IMG/VR virus record: IMGVR_UViG_3300046506_000048
Span: 1 to 24,201 of that record
Reading direction: 5' to 3' (one strand)
DNA from: a virus
DNA length: 24,201 nt
Shown piece by piece: positions 234-1,797 of this stretch. The notes below the pieces were generated by a model. That model was not told where the DNA came from and did no database searches. It saw nothing but the letters and a program-made list of their open reading frames with translations. Every line of letters begins with the position of its first letter. The first letter of the stretch is position 1. Made by a program: the position numbers and the translations under genes.

Positions 234-797
234 ATGGGCATCTATAAAGACGTGATGGGGACTTTGGTCCGGGTGCTGGCCGCTGACAACATCGACAACA
301 GCACGAAACAGTCATGGCAAAAACTGATCGATGCCGACGCGCGACAAGGCGGAACCGGAAGCACTATCTCGGTCCGCGACAAGTTCGACTATGACTGCTG
401 CCTTTATGCGCTGCTGCATCGCGAACTGGATCAGGCCCACTGGGATGTTCTCGTGGCCAGGTACTCAACGCACAAGGCGAACAAGGTCGCATCGATCGGC
501 AGGCTTGTATCCCGCATGAGCTCACCAGCGCCCCAATTGTTCATCTATAAGGCGCTCACCGCCTGGGCAATTCCGAAACTCAAAGGTGTTCAGACCGGCA
601 AGCGATCCACCGACATGATCGTGCTGCCTGCCGAGTTCTACGACATGAATACCTGGGACCTGGCTGGCTCGCCTGAGCGTACTCGCCGCAACTGGCGGTC
701 CGGTATCCATAAGCGTTTGGAGGCACTTGAGGAAGCGGCTGTTATCCATGCAACCGAGATATTCGACGCTGAACAAATATTCGTGGACGCCGCTTGA
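234..797 (+). CDS. Candidate late-gene antiterminator or activator (Q-position protein)
   Basis: This 187-aa soluble protein has no signal peptide or membrane segment. The segment from about residue 138 to 165 (TWDLAGSPERTRRNWRSGI and following) looks like a helix-turn-helix with a basic second helix, of the kind seen in phage late regulators. I do not recognise a named family by sequence. The functional idea comes mainly from position: it is the last gene before the lysis genes and ends inside a candidate promoter that is followed within about 60 bp by an intrinsic terminator. This is the Q-pR'-tR' layout of lambdoid phages. The start is ATG at 234 with a weak GGGGGA upstream. It could instead be a transcriptional activator of the late promoter, or something unrelated. 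Confidence 0.7.
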   Translation: MGIYKDVMGTLVRVLAADNIDNSTKQSWQKLIDADARQGGTGSTISVRDKFDYDCCLYALLHRELDQAHWDVLVARYSTHKANKVASIGRLVSRMSSPAPQLFIYKALTAWAIPKLKGVQTGKRSTDMIVLPAEFYDMNTWDLAGSPERTRRNWRSGIHKRLEALEEAAVIHATEIFDAEQIFVDAA

Positions 798-823
798 CCG
801 TAATGGCCGTTTGGCCGTAAATT
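794..823 (+). promoter_or_regulatory. Candidate late promoter (pR'-like)
   Basis: TTGACC at 794-799 matches five of six bases of a sigma-70 -35 box. TAAATT at 818-823 matches four of six bases of a -10 box, with an 18-bp spacer. It overlaps the stop codon of the upstream gene and points at the lysis genes. A start near 830 would give a leader of about 50 to 75 nt before the terminator at 883-906. This is a reading by eye; the -10 match is mediocre. Confidence 0.4.
795..818 (+). repeat. Three direct repeats TGRCCGT in the promoter spacer
   Basis: TGACCGT (795-801), TGGCCGT (804-810) and TGGCCGT (812-818) lie head to tail with steps of 9 and 8 bp. The first and third copies are both followed by AA. 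The array fills the space between the candidate -35 and -10 boxes. It could be the binding site of the protein encoded just upstream. Confidence 0.6.
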
Positions 824-882
824 TAACCCATCATGTCGATCTTGCGTACGGTGATACGCGACGACAAACAGAACACACGAAA

Positions 883-906
883 CCCGGCCCTCGCGCCGGG
901 TTTTTT
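883..906 (+). terminator. Intrinsic terminator in the late leader
   Basis: CCCGGC at 883-888 pairs with GCCGGG at 895-900 around a 6-nt loop, followed directly by six T. It lies between the candidate promoter and the holin gene, so late transcripts must read through it. A weaker hairpin, GCGTA (844-848) with TACGC (855-859), sits just upstream in the leader. Confidence 0.85.
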
Positions 907-939
907 CGTTTCCAGCTCCCGGAAAGGGAGGACATTCGG

Positions 940-1266
940 ATGCCGACGATGCCCGAAAAGACGCCTGAATTCTGGGCAGCACTCTGGCTGGCCTTGAGCA
1001 ATCCACTATGGCAGGGCGCGATCATGGCCTTCGCAATCTCCCTTCTTCGCATCATCTGGGACGCCAAGGAAATCAGCGTTCGCCGGACTTTGGCTGAATC
1101 ATTGATCTGTGGCGGTCTGAGCCTGTCTGCCAGCACGCTGATCGACTGGATGGGTTGGCCGCCGAGCCTTTCTGTTGCAGCTGGAGGCACCATCGGTTTC
1201 ATCGGCGTTACTGCAATCCGGGAGCTGATTATCAGGTTCCTCGGTCGCAAGGCGGATTCGGTATGA
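940..1266 (+). CDS. Phage holin, lambda S type
   Basis: This 108-aa membrane protein times lysis by opening the inner membrane. It begins MPTMPEKTPEFW and has hydrophobic segments at about residues 24-42, 54-70 and 76-92, ending in a basic RFLGRKADSV tail. Both the MPEK start and the layout match the lambda S holin family (Phage_holin_3_1). The reading frame is open further upstream, but ATG at 940 has a good GGGAGG ribosome site (926-931) and gives the family length. A second in-frame ATG three codons in (MPT-MPEK) recalls the two starts of lambda S. Its stop overlaps the next gene's start in ATGA. Holins of this class make large holes that release cytoplasmic endolysins, which fits the signal-less endolysin at 23315. 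Confidence 0.9.
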   Translation: MPTMPEKTPEFWAALWLALSNPLWQGAIMAFAISLLRIIWDAKEISVRRTLAESLICGGLSLSASTLIDWMGWPPSLSVAAGGTIGFIGVTAIRELIIRFLGRKADSV

Positions 1267-1649
1267 AGGCTTTCGCAGCTGCACTGATTATCTTGCTCAT
1301 TGGCGTGCTGCTGGTGGGCATCCAGCAATACCGAGTTGTGGCGTTGCGTGCCGAGGTTGCTGTCGAGACGAAGGCCAAGACCGCCGCCCTTGACGCGAAC
1401 GAGGAAAGCCAAGCCACGATCACCACGCTGCGAGCGGAAGCCGCTCGCAATGCTTCCTATCAGGCGGACCTGAGCAACCGGCTAAAAGCCAGTGAACAGA
1501 AAGCCCTGAAGGCGAGGAAAGACTTTGAAGACCTCAAGCGTAAAAGCCCGGCTGTTCGCAAGTGGGCTGATCAGCCTCTGCCTGACGGCCTGCGGGGTAA
1601 GCCAGCCCCAGCCGGTAAAGACGACAACGGTAAGGCTCGAGCCCCCTGA
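1263..1649 (+). CDS. Rz-like i-spanin (inner-membrane spanin subunit)
   Basis: The 128-aa product has one N-terminal membrane anchor (residues about 3-21, FAAALIILLIGVLLVGI). A long, charged, probably coiled-coil periplasmic domain follows (about 27-100), with a Pro-rich end. This is the Rz/LysB architecture. Together with Rz1 it bridges inner and outer membranes and fuses them in the last step of lysis. The start is ATG at 1263, overlapping the holin stop as ATGA. A longer upstream frame exists but would destroy the membrane anchor topology. The Rz1 gene begins inside this gene in another frame, which is the usual embedded arrangement. Confidence 0.9.
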   Translation: MKAFAAALIILLIGVLLVGIQQYRVVALRAEVAVETKAKTAALDANEESQATITTLRAEAARNASYQADLSNRLKASEQKALKARKDFEDLKRKSPAVRKWADQPLPDGLRGKPAPAGKDDNGKARAP

Positions 1650-1797
1650 GCTTGTCCCTTGTGAGCGCATCAGCGAAAGCGACGAAGACGTCGCACTCAA
1701 TGGCGACCTCTGGGCCTTGAAAGATCGGGCGGTGAACCTGCTCGACACCTGCGCTGATCAGGTCGACGCCCAAATCCTTCGCAGCAAGAGCAAATAG
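1525..1797 (+). CDS. Rz1-like o-spanin lipoprotein, overlapping Rz
   Basis: The frame starts with TTG at 1525, seven bases after a GAGG at 1514-1517. The 90-aa product has a basic N-terminus, a hydrophobic stretch (LFASGLISLCL) and the lipobox LTAC with Cys at residue 23. A Pro-rich start to the mature part (VSQPQPV) follows. These are marks of the outer-membrane spanin partner. It starts inside Rz in a different frame and runs about 150 bp past the Rz stop. It is therefore a partly embedded pair rather than a fully nested one, and longer than lambda Rz1. The non-ATG start is the least certain point; no better in-frame start keeps the signal peptide. Confidence 0.85.
   Translation: MKTSSVKARLFASGLISLCLTACGVSQPQPVKTTTVRLEPPELVPCERISESDEDVALNGDLWALKDRAVNLLDTCADQVDAQILRSKSK

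Follow-up and report, generated by a model that had tools for sequence, protein, structure and literature searches.

The described system closest to the late-control locus analyzed here is that of AlpA from Pseudomonas aeruginosa (PDB 7xya, 7xyb). AlpA belongs to a chromosomal cell-death locus rather than to a phage late operon, and its target promoter PalpB has a downstream terminator and controls lysis genes. The AlpA-binding element (ABE, GGGACGN5GGTA) lies between the -35 and -10 elements, and only one AlpA molecule is described in the published structure. Residues K138, S139, T140, and H142 of AlpA are located in the major groove of the ABE and are required for read-through, and the -10-like element of PalpB, CACGAT, spans positions -1 to +5 (PMC9371919). 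Among the phage proteins, phage 21 Q (PDB 6JNX, 6P19; PF06530) binds direct repeats TGAGCA as two protomers, with key base pairs at -21 and -13, while lambda Q (PDB 7ubn; PF06323) requires a -35-like element (PMC6606751). Lambda Q also contains an inserted zinc finger (PMC9371919). In Caulobacter crescentus, the antiterminator GafZ uses an element between -35 and -10 and reads through a downstream terminator (PMC11150451).

Here we describe a locus in a window of 24,201 nucleotides, which is the whole of a 24.2-kb virus record. The gene at 234-797 very probably encodes a processive Q-class antiterminator with an AlpA-like fold, serving as the switch for late genes in a temperate Pseudomonas phage.

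Organization of the locus

The gene at 234-797 runs into its own candidate promoter. Its stop codon (TGA, 795-797) is embedded in the -35 hexamer, and a spacer of 18 bp separates the -35 and -10 hexamers (Table 1). An intrinsic terminator follows, and behind it lie the lysis genes, with the holin gene and the LysB/Rz-like and LysC/Rz1-like spanin genes occupying 940-1797. The genes 3' of the terminator are all encoded on the + strand, and the spanin genes are followed by HNH, terminase, portal, protease, major head, tail, and fibre genes. The sequence-only reading had listed the 187-aa reading frame, the promoter, the terminator, and the lysis genes in this order, and all four were recovered; the terminator stem, given there as 883-906, is shifted by a few bases to 879-904. 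The same gene is found directly 5' of the late promoter and lysis genes in D3, F10, JBD44, MD8, Solano, and Hali.

Table 1 Features of the late-control locus and adjoining lysis genes
Feature	Position	Strand	Basis
Proposed late antiterminator, Q-class, phrog_3412 family	234..797	+	ORF with ATG, 187 aa
Codons of residues 146-154 (SPERTRRNW), N-terminal end of recognition helix	669..695	+	R149 at 678-680
-35 element TTGACC, overlapping stop codon of the 234-797 gene	794..799	+	TTGAC (TTGCA in three clusters) across 32/32 clusters
Predicted Q binding element, subsite 1, TGGCCG	804..809	+	Period-8 direct repeat; same register as the ABE of PalpB
Predicted Q binding element, subsite 2, TGGCCG	812..817	+	As subsite 1; TGGCCGNNTGGCCG site occurs once in the window
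-10 element TAAATT	818..823	+	Sigma70-like site with the -35 element
Predicted -10-like (sigma-dependent pause) element CATCAT	829..834	+	CATC invariant, 32 clusters
Possible leader stem-loop	834..866	+	Window folds there; modest support across relatives
Conserved TGCG; predicted pause T843/G844, 9 nt past -10-like element	843..846	+	T 30/32, G 28/32 clusters
tR'-like intrinsic terminator, stem 879-904 and T tract	879..909	+	10 pairs, 6 G-C, 6-nt loop
Holin, lambda-family, first late gene	940..1266	+	TIGR01594 and PF05106 profile matches
Rz/LysB-like spanin	1263..1649	+	phrog_89 E 1.3e-28; TIGR03495 below its cut-off
Rz1/LysC-like spanin, overlapping Rz/LysB-like gene	1525..1797	+	phrog_456 E 1.8e-13

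A conserved promoter module with two direct repeats

The strongest feature of the locus, absent from the sequence-only reading, is the pair of direct repeats at 804-817. The complete module is composed of the -35 element, two direct repeats spaced exactly 8 bp apart in the spacer, the -10 element, a start region with the pattern CATC.T...TGCG, and the terminator. Finding each of these sites once in a lone sequence is weak evidence (four terminator-like sites were found in the window sequence scanned versus 3.1 expected), but the whole module recurs, and nearly all relatives have it either directly behind the gene or past inserted genes. Sigma70-like sites number two in 3 kb of the window versus 0.6 expected in shuffles, and 794-823 is one of the two.

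Among the relatives, 216 of 285 reach a module score of at least 17 within 30 bp of the stop codon, versus one background hit in 672 kb; this score includes the CAT element. Under strict criteria, period-8 repeats occupy the -35/-10 spacer at 138 of 285 loci, with three background hits in 422 kb, and repeats of periods 5-7 and 9-11 are found at 0-11 of these loci. Several loci below the module score carry the same module with an altered half-site or a TTGCAA -35 element. In the -10-like element, a weak hexamer match assigned from sequence only, position 2 is A in all 32 clusters and position 6 is T in 29 of them.

The register of these elements agrees with that of PalpB. In both PalpB (GGGACGATAAAGGTATAAATTCTCCACGAT) and window positions 805-834 (GGCCGTTTGGCCGTAAATTTAACCCATCAT), 24 bp lead from the binding element to the -10-like element. 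This shared spacing places the predicted transcription start at about A830, in line with the start near 830 that had been proposed from the window.

At six loci, DNA or genes are inserted between the antiterminator gene and an intact module, which lies at +777 (L117), +488 (L119), +947 (L126), +510 (L181), +503 (L274), and +58 (L287); this may be a site for accessory genes. No module was found within 1 kb at L118 and L208.

Terminator and leader

Of 102 non-redundant loci, 97 retain the terminator, at a median of +39 and with 56 different left arms; among shuffles the count is 33 of 510. Directly 3' of the terminator, D3 (L002, 5681-6505) has annotated tRNA genes, and a tRNA-like sequence is present 3' of the terminator in L028.

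The leader between start and terminator can be folded as a stem-loop in most clusters, with varying arms and kept pairing (alignment A6). The conserved TGCG is located in or near the loop, and the pair counts are modestly above controls. A covarying RNA hairpin was suggested by single folds, but its alignment score was reached by 26 of 500 shuffles. In addition, RNAalifold predicted nothing on the leader alignment, and a scan of Rfam gave only sub-threshold matches to the leader and terminator. Because the alignment counts are modest and the RNAalifold result is empty, we do not claim a covarying leader RNA element.

Co-variation between residues 146-152 and the repeat

The N-terminal end of the recognition helix changes together with the repeat sequence. 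When 103 non-redundant loci were sorted by repeat class, R149 paired with TGGC[CAG] in 43 of 43, and the sole other R149 pairing was one TGTCC locus. The GCAAC repeat occurs with LNR[ST]TYW (15/15) and the CCATC repeat with RPESTRR (3 loci), while P-[ED]-[SQP]-T is found with TGAGC, TGAGA, or TGATC, mostly TGAGC. Measured by entropy-normalised mutual information over the three main classes, columns 146-149, 151, and 152 fall within the seven best of the whole protein.

Relatedness accounts for part of this link. A quick tree that leaves out residues 140-160 has 16 changes of repeat class. On strongly supported branches, only two independent switches between TGGC and the remaining repeats could be counted, with agreement in nearly every pairing; the complete best tree gives nine. 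Judged from these sequences, the recognition code appears almost deterministic, with residues 146-152 predicting the repeat, and the co-varying period-8 repeats constitute a predicted protein-specific binding element between -35 and -10. Within the clade of the window, L096, L102, and L106-L109 have KPESTRR, with S instead of R at residue 149, and their second half-site is TGATC instead of TGGCC. These loci would represent a recent natural specificity switch.

Predicted fold of the protein

The AlphaFold model of the window protein, built with 76 relatives (pLDDT 82.8), has a Q/AlpA-type fold with a C-terminal helix-turn-helix, and residues 148-180 form the last predicted helix. A Foldseek search against 350,542 PDB chains returned the loaded and loading complexes of AlpA as the top two matches (prob 1.00), with weak E-values of 0.017 and 0.041. 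In VIA-align, AlpA scored Z 13.4 and 13.0 over ~147 residues, a Z of 13 being at the limit of the method for helical proteins, followed by lambda Q with Z 7.6 and 5.3 and by the next row with 3.4. By this ranking, transcription antiterminators fill the first four rows. The match to AlpA and lambda Q takes in the N-terminal part (model residues 6-181), at 13% sequence identity between AlpA and the window protein. A search of the viral structure library yielded a single weak, unnamed full-length match (A0A8S5QVS0, E 0.0025). Of the two phage Q proteins proposed earlier for structural comparison, lambda Q was recovered as the second-best fold family, while 21Q was not among the Foldseek and VIA rows listed, which excludes nothing. 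In seven relatives (L108, L109, L122, L130, L145, L199, and L200), the protein carries an insert of ~40 aa near window residues 119-122; the inserts differ in sequence by branch but share one position, between core and helix-turn-helix.

The fold also bears on the role of the protein. If the protein were simply a DNA-binding activator or repressor acting at the 794-823 promoter, not travelling with polymerase and with an incidental terminator nearby, the position of the repeats in the -35/-10 spacer, where repressors bind too, would fit; likewise, a helix-turn-helix that co-varies with the site is a sign of DNA recognition rather than of antitermination. However, a regulator of this kind would have no need of CATC.T...TGCG at a fixed distance, the terminator persists in nearly all loci while its arms are replaced, and the whole fold, including the N-terminal part, matches AlpA and lambda Q. 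We thus regard simple activation or repression as improbable and prefer a processive antiterminator.

Family and distribution

The protein matches a sole family, phrog_3412 (PHROG profile, function unknown), with an E-value of 1.9e-77 and residues 3-187 aligned to positions 2-187 of 188. No Pfam, NCBIfam, or PDB sequence match was found, and among the Pfam Q families PF06323, PF06530, and PF03589 no match appeared up to E 5. This upholds the sequence-only reading in placing the protein outside the characterised Q families. Its suggestion of a distinct late regulator stands at the sequence level but not at the level of mechanism, as the shared AlpA/Q fold means that the protein is not a new mechanism class.

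Relatives were found by tblastn in 62 phage records, of which 61 bear the name Pseudomonas phage, and the annotated ones among the 40 matches listed read hypothetical or phage protein; the members in D3 and F10 are labelled 'hypothetical'. Queries with D3 and F10 gained further relatives, and members are encoded in 273 stretches from IMG/VR and at 61 loci of bacterial genomes, with Pseudomonas accounting for nearly all. In the open-licence literature found, no function is assigned to D3 orf84 or its relatives. Neither a PF06530 nor a PF03589 Q was detected in 50 records carrying the phrog_3412 family, for which the controls gave signal; PF06323 was also without a match in family-carrying records, but its control was equally silent.

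The reading frame immediately upstream (3-230, phrog_5085, E 5.5e-39) might instead be taken for the Q protein, since its relative MD8 gp60 (L289, 3664-3960) is annotated 'antitermination protein Q' and it possesses zinc-knuckle-like CxxCxGxG cysteines. Its place is taken by unrelated families in D3, F10, and JBD44 (phrog_7514, phrog_4935, and phrog_21368), whereas phrog_3412 and the co-varying repeats remain constant. This variation across the family rules out the upstream frame as a conserved partner and makes it a most implausible Q. The MD8 label is probably misplaced, because the next gene is the better candidate. Equally hard to credit is a late initiation factor of the sigma region 4 type: Q helix-turn-helix domains resemble sigma region 4 (PMC6606751) and an AlpA ortholog weakly matches a sigma PHROG, but the promoter has good sigma70 hexamers itself, the repeats lie between -35 and -10 rather than replacing them, and neither Pfam nor PHROG gave a sigma match for the window protein.

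Relationship to AlpA and other antiterminators

AlpA itself was located among our loci by the promoter pattern (L292) and confirmed by its match to 7xya (E 1.9e-110). Searched against all PHROGs, AlpA weakly matched phrog_3412 with an E-value of 0.082, and a 77%-identical AlpA ortholog matched this family with 0.0025, both over most of their length. Alignment of AlpA with the window family by hhalign gave P 0.0012 and a probability of 19%, and it places E148-R149-T150-R151-R152-N153-W154 on AlpA K138-S139-T140-L141-H142-R143-W144. Common descent of AlpA and the phrog_3412 family is likely. AlpA orthologs are also located near the ends of several IMG/VR contigs (L294-L305), which suggests that prophage sequence frequently adjoins the alp locus or is called together with it.

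The two systems are alike in the fold with its C-terminal helix-turn-helix, in a binding element between -35 and -10 with the same register to a -10-like element at -1 to +5, and in a downstream terminator and control of lysis genes. They differ in the element itself, as the ABE has no 8-bp repeat; the ABE sequence is absent from the window, which has TGGCCG direct repeats instead.

In this respect the window resembles phage 21, where two 6-bp direct repeats are likewise 8 bp apart in the spacer. The window repeats end at about -21 and -13, the positions of the key base pairs of phage 21 Q, and the family class TGAGCG is nearly equal to the phage 21 repeat. By analogy, two protomers probably occupy the window repeats, one each. 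Phage 21 Q differs in showing no sequence match to the window protein. Lambda Q is similar in its gene position, adjoining a late promoter and terminator 5' of the holin gene, but it lacks sequence similarity to the window protein, which has no zinc-finger cysteine set of the lambda Q type. The phage 82 Q family (PF03589) is distinguished by the missing Pfam match. GafZ shares the location of the element and the downstream terminator; its element is an inverted repeat, it works with GafY and IHF, and it was reported to be without structural similarity to AlpA or Q.

Proposed mechanism and significance

A cassette of the Q-pR'-tR' type with a non-lambda Q, as had been proposed for this locus, is well supported computationally. 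The gene position, the spacer repeats, the conserved start region, and the terminator at ~+39 fit it, as do the AlpA and lambda Q fold matches and the co-variation between helix and repeat. From these we infer DNA binding, loading onto a paused polymerase, and antitermination by the protein.

In the proposed mechanism, sigma70 RNA polymerase would start at ~830 from the 794-823 promoter and would pause near 843 because sigma region 2 grips CATCAT. Without the 234-797 protein, transcription would end at the 879-904 terminator, leaving a leader RNA of ~80 nt. The C-terminal helix-turn-helix of the protein would read DNA, and its N-terminal part may be able to form a ring. The protein would bind the TGGCCG repeats, with each repeat probably occupied by a single molecule, as for phage 21 Q, and would then pass to the paused polymerase and narrow the RNA exit channel. 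The modified polymerase would read through the terminator into the lysis, packaging, head, and tail genes.

On this reading, the family consists of phage Q proteins that have the AlpA fold, an operator of two sites like that of 21Q, and a recognition code, and it is of a kind already known. Its description would provide a function for a large 'hypothetical' family in D3, F10, JBD44, and hundreds more Pseudomonas phages and prophages, and would name their late switch. Moreover, it connects AlpA, for which a prophage origin was suspected in the absence of any relative, with a phage family. We tentatively suggest, at somewhat less than even odds, that this phage family is the source of domesticated AlpA and that the short recognition cassette at 146-152 divides the family into late-control groups that are orthogonal to one another (TGGCC, TGAGC, GCAAC, CCATC, and TGTCC). 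If such groups exist, co-resident prophages would not switch on each other's late genes. The family also offers a set of naturally occurring protein-DNA pairs governed by a seemingly near-deterministic code, which makes Q specificity change and prophage cross-activation directly testable.
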